The notes under the pieces: model-generated
Told to the model about the DNA's origin: nothing
The model's database searches: none
Seen by the model: the letters and a program-made list of their open reading frames with translations, nothing else
Shown: positions 33,629 to 42,104 of the stretch, one piece after another
How positions within the stretch are numbered: position 1 is the first letter of the stretch
How the letters are laid out: every line of letters begins with the position of its first letter
NCBI RefSeq assembly: GCF_947499695.1
Contig: NZ_CANMPQ010000001.1
Span: 806,001-870,000 of the forward strand
Length of the DNA: 64,000 nucleotides
Direction: 5' to 3'
Source of the DNA: an uncultured Allomuricauda sp.
Lineage (GTDB): Bacteria > Bacteroidota > Bacteroidia > Flavobacteriales > Flavobacteriaceae
Made by a program: the position numbers and the translations under genes

Positions 33629-33660
33629 TAAAAAAAGAGATTGGCTATGTGATACCAATC
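33629..33660 (-). terminator. Terminator of the ilv operon
   Basis: On the minus strand GATTGG and CCAATC flank a short loop (extendable by TAT/ATA with one bulge) and are followed by TCTTTTTTT. The stem begins at the ilvA stop codon. Confidence 0.65.
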
Positions 33661-34924
33661 ACACTAAATATTGAAACAAATCGGGTTTATCGTTTAGATA
33701 ATCCCCAAAAAAATTGTTAATCTTCATACGTTGAATCAGCGGCTTGAGGTCATTAGATGATTTTAACTCTATTCCCACAACAGCTGGCGCATTTTCACGA
33801 CTGGATTTTTTGGAGTATTCAAAATGTGTAATATCATCTGTGGGCCCTAAAATGTCAGCAACAAACTCCTTTAAGGCACCAGGTCGTTGAGGAAAACGCA
33901 CAATGAAATAATGTTTTAAGTTACTAAAAAGCAACGCCCGTTCTTTTATTTCAGCTGTCCGAGTTATGTCGTTATTACTACCGCTTACAATGCAAACAAC
34001 ATTTTTCCCTTTTATGTCATATTCAAATTCATCCAAAGCAGCAATGGTCAGAGCTCCTGCTGGCTCCACCACAATAGCATCTCTATTGTACAACTGTAAG
34101 ATGGTCTGGCATACTTTACCTTCTGGAATGGTTTCCATCTTATACAGATGGTCCTTACAAATTGGAAAGGTATAATGACCCACTTTTTGCACGGCCGCTC
34201 CATCTATAAATTTATCTATTTGATTAAGTTCGACTAATTCTCCCTTTTCCATAGAGGTTTTCATTGAAGGAGCTCCGGCTGGTTCAATACCTATAATTTT
34301 GGTCTTTGGTGATAACTCACTAAATGTGGCACAAAGTCCTGCAGCCAATCCACCACCACCAACAGCTACAAAAACAAAATCTATCGGTTCTTTAGACTGA
34401 TTTAGCAGCTCCAAACCAATAGTCGCTTGTCCTTCAATGGTTTTTGGATCATCAAAAGGATGAACAAAAGTTTTGTTTTGATTGTCACAGTAGGTTTTTG
34501 CTGCTTTTTGGGAATCGTCGAATGTATCTCCTTCTAAAACTATTTCGACCCAATCCCCTCCAAACATTTTAGTCTGGTCAATCTTTTGTTTTGGCGTGAC
34601 TGCGGGCATATAAATTGTACCCTTCACTTTTAAATGATTGCAAGCAAACGCCACTCCCTGTGCATGATTTCCAGCACTCACACAAACCACACCTTTTCTT
34701 AATTCTTGTGAAGAAAGAGAACTAATCTTGTTGAAGGCACCTCGAATCTTGTAACTGCGTACTCGATTTAAATCCTCACGTTTTAGAAGAACATTCGCCC
34801 CTAATTCTTTGGAATAGCGGATACTTGGCTGCAATGGTGTTGGGTCGGTTACTAGTTTAATAGTCTGCGCAGCCTTATAAATATCCGCTATATCCGGAAA
34901 ATATGTTGTCGCTGTTCCTTTCAT
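33659..34924 (-). CDS. ilvA: Threonine ammonia-lyase
   Basis: A 421-residue PLP enzyme that deaminates threonine to 2-ketobutyrate, the first committed step of isoleucine synthesis. The PLP lysine is in SYKIRGAFNKI, followed by SAGNHAQGVAFAC; the phosphate-binding glycine loop is AVGGGGLAAG. A single C-terminal ACT-like regulatory domain (about 335-421, beginning HYFIVRFPQRPGALKEF) is present, shorter than the double domain of E. coli IlvA (514 residues), matching the short biosynthetic form. Last gene of the ilv operon, 29 bp after ilvC. Confidence 0.94.
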   Translation of the reverse strand: MKGTATTYFPDIADIYKAAQTIKLVTDPTPLQPSIRYSKELGANVLLKREDLNRVRSYKIRGAFNKISSLSSQELRKGVVCVSAGNHAQGVAFACNHLKVKGTIYMPAVTPKQKIDQTKMFGGDWVEIVLEGDTFDDSQKAAKTYCDNQNKTFVHPFDDPKTIEGQATIGLELLNQSKEPIDFVFVAVGGGGLAAGLCATFSELSPKTKIIGIEPAGAPSMKTSMEKGELVELNQIDKFIDGAAVQKVGHYTFPICKDHLYKMETIPEGKVCQTILQLYNRDAIVVEPAGALTIAALDEFEYDIKGKNVVCIVSGSNNDITRTAEIKERALLFSNLKHYFIVRFPQRPGALKEFVADILGPTDDITHFEYSKKSSRENAPAVVGIELKSSNDLKPLIQRMKINNFFGDYLNDKPDLFQYLV

Positions 34925-34953: not shown

Positions 34954-36429
34954 TTAAACTATAGGCTTCATCGCAGTCATCGACTCACGCAACCTAGCTC
35001 CCACTATTTCAACTGGATGCTCACGCAAGGCTTTATTGACTGCTATAAGTTTCACATTGTCCACCCCATTGTCGCTGCCAGCGCCGTATTGCTTTCCAAT
35101 GACATCGGTATCTATGGACTTCATAAAATCAGTCAACAATGGCTTACAAGCATGGTCAAAAAGGTAACATCCGTACTCTGCAGTGTCGGAAATAACCCTG
35201 TTCATCTCAAACAATTTCTTTCTAGCAATGGTATTTGCAATTAGTGGCGTCTCATGTAGAGACTCATAATATGCCGATTCACCTATTATACCAGATTCCG
35301 TCATAGTCTCAAAGGCCAATTCTACACCAGATTTCACAAGAGCTACCATTAACACTCCGTTATCGTAAAATTCTTGCTCTGAAATATTATCATTTCCGGC
35401 AGGGGTCTTTTCAAATGACGTTTCTCCAGTAGCCGCTCTCCAATCAAGCAAGTTTTTATCGTCATTGGCCCAATCTTCCATCATCGTTTTGGAAAAATGA
35501 CCACTCATGATATCGTCCATATGTTTTTGGAACAACGGGCGCATGATTTCTTTTAGTTCTTCCGCCAGTTCAAAAGCTTTTATTTTGGCTGGATTGGACA
35601 ATCTATCCATCATATGGGTTATACCGCCATACTTAAGGCCTTCGGTGATAGTTTCCCATCCATATTGAATTAGTTTTGAAGCATAGCCTGCGTCCATTCC
35701 TTTTTCCAACATTTTATCGAAGCATAGAATAGATCCTGTTTGCAACAGGCCGCATAAAATCGTCTGTTCACCCATCAAATCGGATTTTACCTCTGCAACA
35801 AACGACGATTCCAAAACACCTGCTTTATCACCTCCAGTACCCGCGGCATAGGCTTTAGCCTGGGCAAGTCCCTTACCTTCCGGGTCATTCTCCGGGTGCA
35901 CGGCTATCAATGTTGGCACACCAAACCCCCTTTTATATTCTTCCCGAACTTCAGAACCAGGACTCTTTGGAGCTACCATGATTACAGTCAAATCTTCACG
36001 AACTTGCATTCCTTCCTCAACGATATTAAATCCATGGGAATACGAAAGGGTGGCTCCTTTTTTCATTAATGGCATAACAGCACCTACCACATTGGTGTGC
36101 TGCTTGTCCGGGGTTAAGTTGATCACTAAATCAGCCGTTGGAATCAATTCTTCGTAGGTTCCTACGTTAAAATTGTTCTCTTTTGCATTTTTAAAGGATT
36201 GTCTTTGCTCTTTGATTGCGGCCTCACGAAGTGTATAGGAAATATCTAAACCAGAATCTCTCATATTCAATCCTTGGTTCAGACCTTGGGCACCACAGCC
36301 CACAATAACTATTTTCTTTCCTTTTAGCGCTGCGACACCATCAGCAAATTCGCTGGCGTCCATGAATCTACATTTTCCTAATTGTTCCAATTGATCGCGA
36401 AGCGACAGCGTATTAAAATAATTTGTCAT
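34954..36429 (-). CDS. ilvC: Ketol-acid reductoisomerase (class II)
   Basis: A 491-residue enzyme that isomerises and reduces acetohydroxyacids to dihydroxyacids using NADPH and magnesium. The Rossmann start [21 protein letters not shown] is clear, followed by the NADPH-selectivity loop with [12 protein letters not shown]. The length (about 490) and the repeated knotted domain identify the class II, E. coli-like form rather than the 330-residue class I. Metal-binding acidic residues are in [13 protein letters not shown]. Between ilvN (24 bp upstream) and ilvA. Confidence 0.96.
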
Positions 36430-36453: not shown

Positions 36454-36981
36454 TTATTGATTTTGAAATTCTTCTAAAATGTTGGTAATTGGCATTGTGG
36501 CCTTAGTTACCGCAATGCGTCCTGAACGGACAAATTGCATAATACCATAAGGCTCAAGAGCATCGTGCATTTCATCAATCTCATGTTTACGTCCTGTTTT
36601 AGCCAAAACAAAGAAATCCCTGGCCACGGTAACAATCTGCGAATTACTTTCTTTAATAATATTCTGTATCTGACGTTCATCAAACAAGAGATCGGAGGCT
36701 ATTTTGAACAAGGCCGACTCTTGATATATGGTTTCCTCATCAGTGTGGTAGAATGCTTTTATTACTTCTATTTGTTTTTCAATCTGTCCTGCAATTTTAC
36801 GGACCCATTCTTCATGGGTGAAAACAACTATCGTAAATTTTGAAACATTCTCAATTTCTGATTTTGAAACATTTAAACTCTCTATATTAATGTGTCTCTT
36901 TAAGAATATACCTGATATTCTATTTAAAAGTCCCACATTGTTTTCGGAATAAACCGATATGGTATACCAATGTTTTTCCAT
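36454..36981 (-). CDS. ilvN: Acetolactate synthase small (regulatory) subunit
   Basis: A 175-residue regulatory subunit with an N-terminal ACT domain (about 4-80, YTISVYSENNVGLLNRISGIFLKRHINIESLNVSKS) that binds valine, and a C-terminal activation domain. It stimulates IlvB and confers feedback inhibition. It is separated from ilvB by the methyltransferase gene, with just 1 bp between them, an unusual arrangement since ilvB and ilvN are normally adjacent. Confidence 0.94.
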   Translation of the reverse strand: MEKHWYTISVYSENNVGLLNRISGIFLKRHINIESLNVSKSEIENVSKFTIVVFTHEEWVRKIAGQIEKQIEVIKAFYHTDEETIYQESALFKIASDLLFDERQIQNIIKESNSQIVTVARDFFVLAKTGRKHEIDEMHDALEPYGIMQFVRSGRIAVTKATMPITNILEEFQNQ

Positions 36982-36982
36982 G

Positions 36983-37564
36983 CTATTTTATTTTGACTGC
37001 AACTATAAGTCCGGTTGACCAGTCCATTTTAGTAATTGTAAAATCTTTCTTTGCTTCTAATATTTGAATTAATTCAGAGGCCTTTTTATCATGACCTTGA
37101 GGCCAATTGGTTTGATAGCTCATATCATCAATCACATAGAAGCCTCCAATATTTAGTAATTCCAACGTTGCATCCAATAAACTATACTTGCCTGGCCATG
37201 CATCGGCAAAAATCAAATCGAACTTAATCCCTTTATAGGTTGATATCCATTCTTCGCCATCCGCACAGACCAATTGAAGTCTTTCATCCGCTTCAAAAAA
37301 GTCTTTTGCTATTTGAATCAATTCCGGGTCGTTATCAACACTTAGAACCTTGGAATTTTCATCCATGCCTTTCAACATCCATGATAAGGATAATCCCATA
37401 CCTGTTCCCAATTCAAGAAAATTACCTCCCGGTTTTGAAGCTATTAGCGTTTTGAGTAGCGTACCAATAAACATATCGGAAGGCATATCAAAGCCTATTT
37501 CCTTTGATTTTGCAAGCAAATCGGGATATATCCTCGGTTTATCAAGTATTATAGCTTGATCCAT
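36983..37564 (-). CDS. Class I SAM-dependent (O-)methyltransferase in the ilv operon
   Basis: A 193-residue methyltransferase with a Rossmann core: motif I FLELGTGMGLSLSWML (about 49-64), the acidic residue binding SAM ribose in VLSVDNDPELIQIAK, FDLIFADAWPGKY (motif IV), and IGGFYVIDDMSYQ. The closest general class is the O-methyltransferase (catechol/caffeoyl-CoA-like) group. It is wedged between ilvB and ilvN: its ATG directly follows the ilvB stop and its stop is 1 bp before ilvN, so it is certainly co-transcribed. Branched-chain amino acid synthesis needs no methyl transfer; the substrate is unknown. Confidence 0.88.
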   Translation of the reverse strand: MDQAIILDKPRIYPDLLAKSKEIGFDMPSDMFIGTLLKTLIASKPGGNFLELGTGMGLSLSWMLKGMDENSKVLSVDNDPELIQIAKDFFEADERLQLVCADGEEWISTYKGIKFDLIFADAWPGKYSLLDATLELLNIGGFYVIDDMSYQTNWPQGHDKKASELIQILEAKKDFTITKMDWSTGLIVAVKIK

Positions 37565-39298
37565 CTACTTTAATCTAATATCTGAAACGGATGCTCCAGA
37601 CGGAATCATCGGGAATACGTTATCTTCTTTTTCCACTTTAACCTCCAAAAAATACGGGTCTTTTGATGCAATCATTTCGCTTACGGCATCTTTCAGTTCT
37701 GAACGTTCTACAACCCTGCGAGATTTAATGTGATACCCCTCTGCAATTTTCACAAAATCAGGGTTGGTCATTACGGTAGAAGCATATCTACTTTCAAAGA
37801 ATAATTCTTGCCACTGACGTACCATTCCCAAATGATCGTTGTTGAGTACAACAATCTTTACGGGAACATTATGCTGAAAGATAACTCCTAATTCTTGAAT
37901 GGTCATCTGGTAGCCTCCGTCACCTATTATGGCAACAACTTCTCTGTCCATCGCACCCATTTTAGCTCCAATAGCCGCCGGTAAAGCAAATCCCATGGTC
38001 CCCAAACCTCCAGATGTGATATTGCTTTTAGATTGTTTGAATTTAGCATACCTACAGGCAATCATTTGGTGTTGCCCTACATCGGTAACTATGACCGCTT
38101 TATGTTCAGAGGCAATATTGATTTGTTCAATCACCTCGCCCATGGTAAGTCCATCCTTGGTGGGTGTTAAATCATTTTTAATTACCGTTTCGTACTCAAT
38201 TCTATATTTTTCTTCAAACTCCGCTCTCCAAGCTTTATGCTCATTCTCATTGATTAACGGCAACAACAGTTCCAAGGTTTGCTTGGAATTGCCCAATACT
38301 GCCACATCCGCTTTTACATTTTTGTTGATTTCAGCGGGGTCTATTTCAAAGTGTATAACTTTAGCTTGCTTAGCATAGGTATCCAAGCTACCGGTAACCC
38401 TATCATCAAAGCGCATACCTATAGCAATAAGCACATCACATTCGTTGGTCAATACATTTGGGCCGTAATTACCATGCATACCTACCATTCCAACATTCAA
38501 AGGATGATCTGTATCCATTGCGGAAAGTCCCAAAATGGTCCAAGCTGCGGGAATTCCAGCTTTTTCAACTAAGGCTTTGAGTTCCGCCTCAGCTTCTCCT
38601 AATATTACTCCCTGGCCAAAAACAATGTATGGTTTTTTGGCATTATTAATAAGCTCAGCTGCTGCTTTAATCGCATTCATGTCTGGTTTCGGTGCTGGTG
38701 TGTAGCTTCTAACACCTGTACATTTTTCATATACAAAATCGAACTCATCAAACTGAGCGTTTTTAGTGATATCGACCAAAACTGGCCCTGGTCTCCCAGA
38801 ACGCGCAATGTAGAAGGCTTTAGCCATGATTTCAGGAATCTCGCTAGCCTTGGTGATTTGATAATTCCACTTGGTGACGGGAGTAGATATCCCTACGATA
38901 TCGGTTTCCTGAAAAGCATCCGAACCCAATAAGTGTCTTGGAACTTGTCCTGTAATGCATACCATGGGAGTGGAATCTATTTGTGCATCTGCTAAGCCAG
39001 TAACCAAATTGGTAGCTCCAGGGCCGGAGGTAGCCATAGCAATCCCCACTTTTCCATTTACACGTGCATATCCTTGAGCGGCATGGGTAGCTCCTTGCTC
39101 ATGTCTTGTGAGAATATGGGTCAGTTTGTCCTGGAACTTATAAAGTTCATCATAGACTGGCATAATAGCTCCTCCTGGATAGCCATAAATTAAGTCCACA
39201 CCTTCAGCCAACAAACAATGGATAATGGCTTCTGCCCCAGTGATACGAATTGACGTTTCTTTTTTCTTTTCTGTTTTTTGCGCTTTCAAAGTCTCCAT
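37565..39298 (-). CDS. ilvB: Acetolactate synthase large (catalytic) subunit
   Basis: A 577-residue thiamine diphosphate enzyme that condenses pyruvate with pyruvate or 2-ketobutyrate. The catalytic glutamate is in RHEQGATHAAQGYAR; the ThDP and magnesium site is GDGGYQMTIQELGVIFQHNVPVKIVVLNN; FAD region and Q-rich blocks are as in the family. It is 49 bp after ilvD and abuts the methyltransferase gene. Confidence 0.96.
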   Translation of the reverse strand: METLKAQKTEKKKETSIRITGAEAIIHCLLAEGVDLIYGYPGGAIMPVYDELYKFQDKLTHILTRHEQGATHAAQGYARVNGKVGIAMATSGPGATNLVTGLADAQIDSTPMVCITGQVPRHLLGSDAFQETDIVGISTPVTKWNYQITKASEIPEIMAKAFYIARSGRPGPVLVDITKNAQFDEFDFVYEKCTGVRSYTPAPKPDMNAIKAAAELINNAKKPYIVFGQGVILGEAEAELKALVEKAGIPAAWTILGLSAMDTDHPLNVGMVGMHGNYGPNVLTNECDVLIAIGMRFDDRVTGSLDTYAKQAKVIHFEIDPAEINKNVKADVAVLGNSKQTLELLLPLINENEHKAWRAEFEEKYRIEYETVIKNDLTPTKDGLTMGEVIEQINIASEHKAVIVTDVGQHQMIACRYAKFKQSKSNITSGGLGTMGFALPAAIGAKMGAMDREVVAIIGDGGYQMTIQELGVIFQHNVPVKIVVLNNDHLGMVRQWQELFFESRYASTVMTNPDFVKIAEGYHIKSRRVVERSELKDAVSEMIASKDPYFLEVKVEKEDNVFPMIPSGASVSDIRLK

Positions 39299-39347: not shown

Positions 39348-41024
39348 TTAAATCATGTCGGTAACACAACCTAGCGAGGCTGAGGATACCGTTTTGGCGT
39401 ATTTGTACAAACTACCTTTTCTTACCTTAAGAGGAGGTTGTTCCCAATTTTCCTTTCTTCTGCTCAATTCTTCTGCGGAAACTGCTACACTGATGCTATT
39501 TTTCTCCGCATCAATGGTTATCACATCTCCATCTTCAACTAGTCCGATAGCACCTCCCTCCTGAGCTTCAGGTGCAATATGTCCCACCACAAAACCGTGG
39601 GTTCCACCTGAGAATCGACCATCTGTTATCAAGGCTACATCTTTACCCAAGCCAGCTCCCATAATCGCAGCTGTAGGTTTGAGCATTTCTGGCATTCCAG
39701 GCCCTCCTTTAGGTCCTTCATATCGAATTACCACAACATCACCTTTCTTAACCAGGCCATTTTTGATGCCGTCATTTGCAGCAAACTCCCCTTCAAAAAC
39801 TTTGGCAGGTCCTGAGAAATGCAGACCTTCTTTTCCTGTTATTTTGGCCACTGCGCCATCGCTGGCCAAATTCCCGTATAGAATTCTTAAGTGCCCTGTT
39901 TCTTTAATTGGATTGTCTAAATCCATAACCACTTTTTGCCCTTCAGACAAATCAGCAACCTCTTCCAGGTTTTCTGCAATGGTTTTTCCCGTTACAGTAA
40001 GGCAATCACCATGAAGCATTCCATGTTTCAGCATGAATTTCATGACGGCAGGCACCCCTCCTACGTTGTGAAGATCTTCCATCAAGTATTTACCACTGGG
40101 CTTAAGGTCAGCCAAAAACGGAGTTGTATCACTTATACGTTGAAAATCTTCTAGTCCAAAATCGATTTCTGCCGCTTTGGCAATGGCTAAGAAATGAAGT
40201 ACTGCATTTGTGGACCCACCTAATATGGTTATTAAGCGGACTGCATTCTCCAAGGACTTTTTGGTTATGATGTCACTTGGTTTAATATCATTCTCGAGTA
40301 GATGTTTTAATGCCTTGCCCGAGTCAACACAATCTTTCTTTTTATGACCACCCACTGCTGGGTTTGAAGAACTATATGGCAATGACATACCTAGTGCTTC
40401 AATTGCTGATGCCATTGTGTTTGCCGTATACATTCCGCCACACGCTCCAGCACCAGGGCATGCATTCTGAATTACGCTTTTATATTCATCCTCATTCATG
40501 GTTCCAGCGACCTTTTCGCCCCAAGCTTCAAACGCAGAAACTACATCCAGCTTTTTATCGTTCAAACATCCAGGTGAAATTGTACCTCCGTATACCAAAA
40601 CGGAAGGCCTATCCAAGCGGATCATGGCCATTAGTGCACCCGGCATGTTCTTGTCACAACCAACCACAGTTACCAAGCCATCATAATTCATGGCCTGAAC
40701 AACTGTTTCCATGGAATCTGCAATAATATCTCTAGATGGAAGTGAATAACGCATTCCGTATGTTCCCATTGAAATTCCATCACTAACGCCGATTGTATTG
40801 AAGATAAGTCCTACCAAATCACCTTCAAAAGTTCCTTCCTTTACATAGGTTGACAACTCATTCAGATGCATGTTACATGGGTTCCCTTCATACCCTGTGC
40901 TCCCAATCCCCACCAATGGCTTTTTAAGGTCTTCCTCGGTCAATCCAATCGCATATAACATTGCTTGAGCGGCAGGCTGCGTTGGGTCTTGGGTTACATT
41001 TTTACTATACTTATTCAATTCCAT
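39348..41024 (-). CDS. ilvD: Dihydroxy-acid dehydratase
   Basis: A 558-residue Fe-S dehydratase that converts dihydroxyacids to the ketoacid precursors of valine, leucine and isoleucine. Cluster-binding cysteines are in [19 protein letters not shown] and [20 protein letters not shown]-terminal [20 protein letters not shown] is conserved. First structural gene of the operon ilvD-ilvB-methyltransferase-ilvN-ilvC-ilvA. A 306-nt leader separates it from the leader-peptide start codon and contains the attenuator described separately. Confidence 0.96.
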
Positions 41025-41216
41025 TAATAATATTCTTTCTAATCCAGAATTCCGTTGAATTTACTCTACTATCCAAAGATAGATGTTTCAAATACCCAAT
41101 AATTTTAACAGTTTAAGTGGTTCTAAATCCATCTGCATCAATAAATACGTATTTAACTGAATTTCAATATTTTATCTTATTTTAAAATCCCATATTCATT
41201 TAGTTTCAATACGCAT

Positions 41217-41250
41217 AAAAAAAGCCTGTATCTCATTCGATACAGGCTTT
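41217..41250 (-). terminator. Attenuator terminator of the ilv operon
   Basis: On the minus strand AAAGCCTGTATC, loop GAATGA, GATACAGGCTTT form a perfect 12-bp stem followed by further Ts. It lies upstream of the operon's first gene, between the leader peptide and ilvD, so it can only act as a premature, conditional terminator for ilvD and the genes after it. Confidence 0.88.
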
Positions 41251-41266
41251 TCTCAATCAATGGCAA

Positions 41267-41275
41267 GTCTGTATC
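41267..41275 (-). promoter_or_regulatory. Antiterminator arm of the ilv attenuator
   Basis: Minus-strand GATACAGAC can pair with the left arm of the terminator (GCCTGTATC): seven consecutive pairs, one mismatch, one more pair. It overlaps the leader-peptide stop codon, so a ribosome finishing the leader would cover it and let the terminator form, whereas a ribosome stalled earlier at Val/Ile codons would leave it free. Confidence 0.72.
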
Positions 41276-41330
41276 ATTCCCTAAGGGGAACAATAATGAC
41301 GACGTTATTGATTGTATTATTTTGTTTCAT
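41274..41330 (-). CDS. ilv operon leader peptide
   Basis: An 18-codon frame on the minus strand, ATG at 41330-41328 and TGA at 41276-41274, encoding MKQNNTINNVVIIVPLRE. Seven of the 18 residues are branched-chain (Ile, Val, Val, Ile, Ile, Val, Leu), with an uninterrupted Val-Val-Ile-Ile-Val run at residues 10-14. The last codons also form a small hairpin (TTCCC-CTTA-GGGAA). Followed immediately by antiterminator and terminator arms and then the ilv operon. This is the layout of a classical ribosome-mediated attenuation leader sensing charged tRNA-Ile and tRNA-Val. Translation is not proven; no clear Shine-Dalgarno is seen, as is usual in Bacteroidetes. Confidence 0.78.
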   Translation of the reverse strand: MKQNNTINNVVIIVPLRE

Positions 41331-41375
41331 ACTTCAATAGTACAAAAAAATATTGTTTTCGATATCTTTAAAGCT

Positions 41376-42104
41376 ATGGAAAAAAGTGTTACCGATGCTA
41401 TTCAGTATCGACGGTCCGTCCGCATATTCAAAGACGATATCAAGTTGGATTCAGACAAAGTAAAGAAATGTGTTGAAAATGCGGTTTTGGCACCAACCAG
41501 CAGCAATCTTCAACTTTGGGAGTTTTATCATGTAACCCAACCCCATACTTTGGACAAATTAAGCGTTGCATGCCTAGGTCAGAAGGCGGCAAAAACAGCA
41601 CAACAAATTATTGTAGTTGTGGTTCGAAAAGATTTATGGAGGAGTCGAATAAAAGCCAATCTTAGCTTTTTAAAATCCAGTTTTGGCAAAAAACCTAGAG
41701 AAGAATATAGTAAACCTGAAAAATTCGCTTTGAATTATTATGAGAAAATTATGCCAACGGTTTATTTTGATTTTCTTGGATTGTTGGGATGGATAAAATA
41801 TTTTATGTTTCAGATTGTTGGTATGTTTAAACCAACATATAGACAGGTAAGACAATCTGACATGCGGATTGTCGCCCATAAAAGTGCAGGTCTTGCCGCA
41901 CAGAATTTTATGGTCAGCATGGCGGCCATCGAATATGACACCTGCCCGATGGAAGGGCATGATTCTTTGCGCATAAAAAAAATTCTTGGATTACCCTCTA
42001 GCAGTGAAGTAAATATGGTCATTGGTTGTGGGGTACGAGAGGAACATGGGGTTTATGTCCCACGATTTCGTATTCCTTTTGACCAAGTTTATAAGAGATT
42101 ATAA
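41376..42104 (+). CDS. Nitroreductase family protein
   Basis: A 242-residue flavoprotein of the NfsA/FRase-like fold. The start is set at the ATG 41376 (MEKSVTDAIQYRRSVRIFKDD), since an in-frame extension upstream would run into the ilv leader. The FMN-binding arginine block RRSVRIF, the NAVLAPTSSNLQLWEFYHV segment and a C-terminal MVIGCGVREEHG are typical. An insert of about 70 residues in the middle is rich in aromatic and basic residues. It reduces an unknown substrate with NAD(P)H. Its end overlaps the convergent pxpC gene by 6 bp. Confidence 0.88.
   Translation: MEKSVTDAIQYRRSVRIFKDDIKLDSDKVKKCVENAVLAPTSSNLQLWEFYHVTQPHTLDKLSVACLGQKAAKTAQQIIVVVVRKDLWRSRIKANLSFLKSSFGKKPREEYSKPEKFALNYYEKIMPTVYFDFLGLLGWIKYFMFQIVGMFKPTYRQVRQSDMRIVAHKSAGLAAQNFMVSMAAIEYDTCPMEGHDSLRIKKILGLPSSSEVNMVIGCGVREEHGVYVPRFRIPFDQVYKRL

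Follow-up and report, generated by a model that had tools for sequence, protein, structure and literature searches.

Ribosome-mediated attenuators of the ilv, leu, thr, his and trp operons of Proteobacteria share a logic of 1:2, 2:3 and 3:4 pairings, with the regulatory codons placed just before region 2, and the Thr operon leader is itself a leader-peptide attenuator. Vitreschak and colleagues (2004) reportedly mention Bacteroidetes. According to passages of a 2010 paper, leader-peptide systems were then known only in Proteobacteria and Actinobacteria, before that paper's own Firmicutes case (PMC2965389). For the phylum studied here, Table 1 of a further paper lists a Bacteroidete trp leader (RF01692; PMC2864571). 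Passages of a study of Flavobacterium psychrophilum, which belongs to the same family as our locus, describe 'strong clues' for leader-peptide attenuation, with short peptides upstream of amino-acid biosynthesis operons (PMC9723704); 'ilv' does not occur in the main text of that study, and nothing on tandem units or leaderless leaders was found in these passages. No ilv attenuator of this phylum was found in the literature searched, which lay mostly outside subscription journals.

We analysed a stretch of 64,000 nucleotides, hereafter the window, in which positions 41342-41217 of the minus strand would form a transcription attenuator of the ribosome-mediated kind, responsive to charged tRNA-Ile and tRNA-Val and bypassed by transcripts from a second, predicted promoter, P2. 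We put the probability of this reading at about 0.88. Like Bacteroid-trp (Rfam RF01692) of the same phylum, the locus places a leader peptide and a terminator before an amino-acid operon; RF01692 differs in having Trp codons and other arms. The logic is also common to the Proteobacterial attenuators, whereas the arms of the window are unrelated to theirs, its leader is apparently leaderless, its codons are Ile/Val rather than Leu, and a predicted promoter lies downstream of its terminator. As described in passages of PMC7298713, the attenuator RNA of Sinorhizobium meliloti trpL starts with the leader-ORF ATG, as is predicted here, but that system reads Trp, belongs to another phylum, has been studied experimentally and has roles in trans. 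Salmonella mgtCBR carries two serial leader ORFs before one operon, as do relatives of the window; its units read different signals (ATP and proline; PMC3641672), whereas the serial leaders of the relatives are both Ile/Val-rich. Tandem leader-peptide attenuators were represented in the literature searched by mgtCBR and later papers on it, and a logic of cascaded terminators for amino-acid operons was not met there. Leader-peptide attenuation is thus already known; the serial arrays are the novel part, and leaderless leaders are unusual. The switch appears to be of a well-known kind that is common in Flavobacteriaceae and stands two or three in a row in some relatives.

Anatomy and conservation of the ilv leader region

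All features of the locus lie on the minus strand. The leader peptide ORF MKQNNTINNVVIIVPLRE and its stop codon occupy 41274-41330, with the ATG at 41330 and the TGA at 41276-41274. As the first-pass annotation had claimed, this short ORF has 18 codons, a Val-Val-Ile-Ile-Val run and seven branched-chain residues (I7, V10, V11, I12, I13, V14 and L16). Region 1, the 5' arm of the 1:2 hairpin, falls on the Ile-Ile-Val-Pro codons (41295-41286) and forms 10 bp, two of them G-U, with a 3' arm (41281-41272) that overlaps region 2. Region 2, the antiterminator arm GATACAGAC (41275-41267), overlaps the stop codon by two bases, and the 1:2 hairpin extends into its first four bases. With region 3 (41247-41239), the left arm of the terminator, it makes seven pairs in a row and, past a mismatch, one more; both the overlap and this pairing stood as first described. 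The intrinsic terminator (3:4; 41251-41217) lies between the leader ORF and the first structural gene and consists of AAAAGCCTGTATC (41251-41239), the loop GAATGA, GATACAGGCTTTT (41232-41220, with region 4 at 41232-41224) and a T run to 41217. The hairpin is perfect, as had been reported, with 13 pairs instead of 12. The small hairpin noticed earlier in the last leader codons is present as well, only not as a separate pause structure: a 5-bp pause hairpin distinct from region 2 was dropped, as its extension to 10 bp overlaps region 2. Assignment of the terminator to the divergent nitroreductase gene was rejected, because that gene, which begins at 41376, is oriented in the direction leading away from the hairpin.

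The end of the terminator lies 193 nt from ilvD (39348-41024; PF00920, PF24877), which is followed by ilvB (37565-39298; TPP enzyme domains), an O-methyltransferase-like gene (36983-37564; PF01596), ilvN (36454-36981; PF10369, PF22629), ilvC (34954-36429; PF07991, PF01450) and ilvA (33659-34924; PF00291, PF00585). The operon had been read as ilvD-ilvB-ilvN-ilvC-ilvA on the same strand, which holds except for the gene between ilvB and ilvN.

A direct search for leader plus arm in 59 loci of the window's genus, Flagellimonas (Flavobacteriaceae), found both in 46 and not in 13; with L018 and L026 cut by contig ends, 57 loci were counted. The leader was therefore carried by 46 of 57 Flagellimonas upstream regions, and none was found in 11 congeners with enough upstream sequence. 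The start codon of this putatively translated leader was kept as ATG in 37 of the 46 and as GTG in nine. In the alignment that the first-pass annotation had suggested as a check, the Val/Ile codons, the start codon, the 1:2 hairpin, the antiterminator arm and the terminator were kept together in Flagellimonas and in other genera.

We then counted pairs in an alignment (A1) of 32 leaders, made up of 24 of the 46 genus leaders together with 8 of 12 named leaders. A1 omits near duplicates as well as L073, L082, L102 and L117, which are more divergent, and its pair counts describe the better-aligned part. The protector hairpin 1:2 was paired in 97.2% of 320 cells over its 10 pairs, with changes on both sides in five of them. 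The pair that involves the last base of the Pro codon was seen as A-U, U-G, C-G, U-A and G-C, and 3 of 32 leaders were unpaired there. A longer outer extension of 1:2 was paired in only 72.9% of cells and is not claimed. The terminator 3:4 was paired in 99.3% of 415 cells, with both-side changes in 4 of 13 pairs; against shuffles, the number of pair types was not elevated and the other four measures were. The 2:3 helix was paired in 255 of 255 cells (100%), mostly invariant or with G-U exchanges, and its covariation did not exceed that of shuffles, 29 of 500 of which reached it. Such near-invariance would be expected if region 3 had to pair with both region 2 and region 4. Compensatory changes, which had been proposed as a check in both alternative pairings, were thus found in 1:2 and 3:4 and not, above shuffles, in 2:3. 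When the partners were slid by 1-3 columns, pairing fell to 13.9-60.9% over 1:2, 2:3 and 3:4. The three helices are mutually exclusive, and each could form in 97-100% of the counted cells.

A combined strict test asked for a terminator, an arm and a leader with four or more V/I/L residues in a row. Of the 57 genus regions 34 passed, the window included, whereas no pass occurred among 3000 dinucleotide-shuffled versions of the window's region or 2280 shuffles of the 57 genus regions. The shuffles never yielded even the terminator alone, so that this control is silent on the leader by itself, which is tested by its conservation. Judged by these data, the set of leader, arm and terminator is not a product of chance.

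Predicted promoters on either side of the terminator

GTG is an uncommon start codon for leaderless mRNA, and the nine congeners that start with it were counted against the leaderless reading, which they weaken. The case for that reading comes from a predicted -7 box of promoter P1, TACTATTG (41335-41342). In F. psychrophilum, according to passages of PMC9723704, the sigma-A box TAnnTTTG spans -12 to -5, and leaderless mRNAs make up only 5.5%. With the P1 box at -12 to -5, the start site would fall on the A of the leader ATG, at 41330. The box is a one-base variant of TAnnTTTG, mostly TAnnATTG. The pattern TAnnNTTG (background 0.0039 per position) preceded the leader start codon by exactly 4 nt in 44 of 46 congeners and by 5 nt in one, and was absent in one, so the leader mRNA of the window is probably leaderless. 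By eye, no conserved -33 element was seen for P1, and P1 has little room, since the nitroreductase gene starts at 41376. In two surveys with a loose detector, 25 of 78 leaders that came first or stood alone had a promoter box within 32 nt, as did 2 of 19 second leaders. Support for leaderlessness is accordingly good in Flagellimonas and no more than suggestive in other genera. Should the predicted 5' ends hold, ribosomes of a group that lacks Shine-Dalgarno sequences would begin the leader peptide on leaderless mRNA, and transcription and translation would have to be coupled there.

The same genome carries a His4 leader MRNKNTHHHHFYTCTQAR before hisG (L192; G000:C1 near 588342) and a Trp3 leader MNLRIANTWWWINLRRIS before trpE (L193; G000:C6 near 85963). 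Both have a terminator, and a TAnnTTTG box precedes the ATG by 8 or 5 nt. The trpE leader matches RF01692 (60.2 bits, gathering 49). A single flavobacterium would thus combine attenuators for ilv, his and trp, of which that for ilv has no Rfam model.

A conserved block (41074-41198) between the terminator and ilvD contains TGAATATGGGATTTT (41198-41184), a TGA...CA element, TGTTAAAA (41110-41103) and the -7 box TATCTTTG (41081-41074), for which a start at about 41069 is predicted. The pattern TAnnTTTG (background 0.0005 per position) was present 48-52 nt before the ilvD ATG in all 59 congeners, those without a leader included. Among 78 named loci it occurred within 200 nt of ilvD in 33, at 47-53 nt in 16 of these. 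We read this box below the terminator as a second, predicted promoter, P2. Conservation also covers about 110-120 nt on the upstream side of this box, partly in other genera too; the block is retained in congeners without the leader and may hold a candidate regulator-binding site. A Leu-rich second leader in the stretch that separates the terminator from ilvD (MDLEPLKLLKLLGI in the window) was rejected: its frame is not conserved (that of L014, for example, stops after five codons), and its DNA is, on present sequence comparisons, better explained as promoter region. Neither the P1 box nor P2 had been noticed in the first-pass annotation, in which transcripts beginning downstream of 41220 were to speak against an attenuator; such a start is predicted at P2, in addition to the upstream P1.

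Because P2 sits below the terminator, attenuation would gate only P1 transcripts, and P2 may carry much of the transcription. This raises the alternative that the attenuator is real but a minor add-on in the course of being lost, with expression of the operon set mainly from P2. Such a view would fit the occurrence of the P2 box in 59 of 59 congeners, the 11 of 57 that show no leader, and the long block before P2 that recurs partly in other genera. It does not sit well with the clear constraint on leader, hairpins and P1 box in 46 genomes or with the recurrence of leader-terminator units ahead of the operon in 48 of the 83 one-per-genus genomes, and we consider it possible but unlikely.

Folding with a ribosome mask and the proposed switch

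We folded the window RNA with the ribosome footprint masked, under the assumption that the footprint covers 13 nt from the first A-site base. Without a ribosome, 1:2 formed (p = 0.99), 2:3 did not (p = 0.00) and the terminator formed. With the A-site at Val10 to Pro15, 2:3 reached p = 0.89 before arm 4 was made, 1:2 persisting in part at Val10 (p = 0.46). With the A-site at Glu18 or the stop codon, p(2:3) was 0.00 and the terminator formed again. The competing-structure folds suggested earlier therefore gave the expected switch, before arm 4 was made. In the full-length RNA at equilibrium, 3:4 won in every ribosome state (about -17 to -24 kcal/mol, versus -5 to -11 kcal/mol for 2:3), and therefore antitermination must be kinetic.

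Together with the conservation and the compensatory changes, these folds support the ribosome-mediated attenuator that the first-pass annotation had proposed; its start sites, termination, read-through and amino-acid response, and control of the operon by charged tRNA, are inferred. P1 transcription would begin at the leader ATG or within a base or two of it, and a ribosome would load on the bare 5' end. With ample charged tRNA, the ribosome would reach the stop codon and cover region 2; region 3 would then pair with region 4, and transcription would terminate after about 114 nt. A ribosome stalled at Val10-Val14 would break 1:2 (only partly at Val10) and leave region 2 free, 2:3 would form before region 4 exists, and the polymerase would read into ilvD-ilvB-(methyltransferase)-ilvN-ilvC-ilvA. 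In the case of no ribosome, 1:2 would hold region 2 and termination would follow. P2, below the terminator, would supply transcripts that bypass the attenuator.

Rather than serving chiefly read-through, the terminated RNA of about 114 nt or the peptide might act in trans, like rnTrpL/peTrpL of S. meliloti, with read-through control secondary. The predicted leaderless short RNA does resemble rnTrpL, whose 5' end is the trpL ATG (passages of PMC7298713). However, the N- and C-terminal sequence of the peptide is largely variable among leaders, and the leader frame of Arenibacter (L130, L141) ends prematurely with the hairpin retained; we hold action in trans to be very unlikely.

The terminator could also be constitutive, the Val/Ile codons being kept only for the RNA hairpin and nothing being sensed. 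The conserved ATT ATT codons do double as part of region 1, and because the same codons form this arm, their conservation alone is not evidence of sensing. Yet Val10, Val11 and the N-terminal Val/Ile of many leaders fall outside the 10-bp hairpin, and units with unrelated arms are also Ile/Val-rich, although the detector selected for V/I/L. In a set of 97 leaders, Ile made up 30.1%, Val 14.1% and Leu 5.9%, compared with 7.7%, 7.3% and 9.3% in nine window proteins; as the unit detector required V/I/L-rich peptides, only the low Leu content is independent of that choice. Leaders of this sort are, by these compositions, Ile- and Val-rich and not Leu-rich, and a constitutive terminator appears even less probable than action in trans. 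Control of the terminator by a tRNA-binding T-box, a riboswitch or an RNA-binding protein, for which no supporting point was found, can practically be dismissed: no Rfam family, RF01692 included, matches the window at gathering score, the best sub-threshold match being the Thr operon leader (RF00506 Thr_leader, 35.5 versus 55 bits).

Distribution and serial arrangement of units in Flavobacteriaceae

To place the ilv attenuator in its family, we used the covariance model R1, which at an E value of 1e-3 or better matched 109 of 397 genomes of the family. This is an upper figure, as 9 of 20 further fetched lower-scoring or tandem matches (L178-L184, L186 and L187) had no such leader and looked by eye like plain terminators. 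L190, another of the 20, was a Trp leader before trpE. The best 30 matches among the 397 genomes, which include the window and some sequences used to build R1, were all upstream of ilvD on the same strand, 29 of them at 150-305 nt; the remaining one lay at 1041 nt, separated from ilvD by an aminotransferase gene. Of 395 genomes drawn from the phylum, R1 matched nine at 1e-5: eight in Flavobacteriaceae, the window's own genome and the trpE leader of G233 among them, and one in another family of the class.

A first arm detector proved too strict (9 of 80 named loci), and a looser unit detector was used instead. With one genome per Flavobacteriaceae genus, one or more leader-terminator units preceded ilvD or its operon in 48 of 83, and two in eight, compared with 0 of 83 on the opposite strand and 0 of 830 shuffles. 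The 83 are the 87 genomes with ilvD minus L272 (31 bases) and G075, G121 and G124 (fragmentary or contig-edge ilvD). In 80 named loci, which partly overlap this set, at least one unit was found in 35 and two in 12 (shuffles, 1 of 1560). The loose detector found no unit in 45 of 80 named and 35 of 83 one-per-genus loci; it perhaps admits some spurious leaders (L126, L210) and misses true ones, such as the first unit of L172, seen by eye only. Some loci represent one genome seen twice (L103 and L213 share sequence features).

Two units in series were found in Tenacibaculum, Aquimarina, Bizionia, Gelidibacter, Sinomicrobium and others. Three precede an ilvE-like aminotransferase gene in L174 and L175 by the detector, where the gene is Pfam-supported, and in L172, where the first unit was added by eye. 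The window itself has a single unit, and R1 matches its genome only once. In 24 of 29 successive pairs, the gap from the terminator stem to the next start codon was 10-33 nt and held no -7 box. The five longer gaps measured 88-131 nt, with boxes in L111 and, by a looser pattern, L231. As the short gaps are free of boxes, most second units are probably on the same transcript as the first.

A broader model would make the Flavobacteriaceae ilv attenuator modular, with a leaderless or nearly leaderless first leader and one to three serial units on one transcript, all reading Ile/Val, whose cascaded terminators would multiply repression and sharpen the response. We give this model even odds. The arrays of the relatives would provide the same switch in naturally occurring forms with one, two or three stages.

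Several further features were observed at these loci. The last two units of L172, L174 and L175 contain Ile-rich repeats, and L177, the second R1 match in G431, has two serial Ile-rich units before an ilvB-like gene, distinct from the ilvD attenuator of G431. A second attenuator type, with CCTTCC/GGAAGG arms, shows a covarying GTGA/TCAC hairpin inside Val-Ile-Ile-Ser codons, seen in L215, L219, L224 and 23 others (A3 columns 68-80; the A2 and A3 alignments hold 26 of 29 listed type-B units). Near the ilv locus of Bizionia arctica, a SAM-II riboswitch was matched at gathering score (L082:611-670, minus strand).
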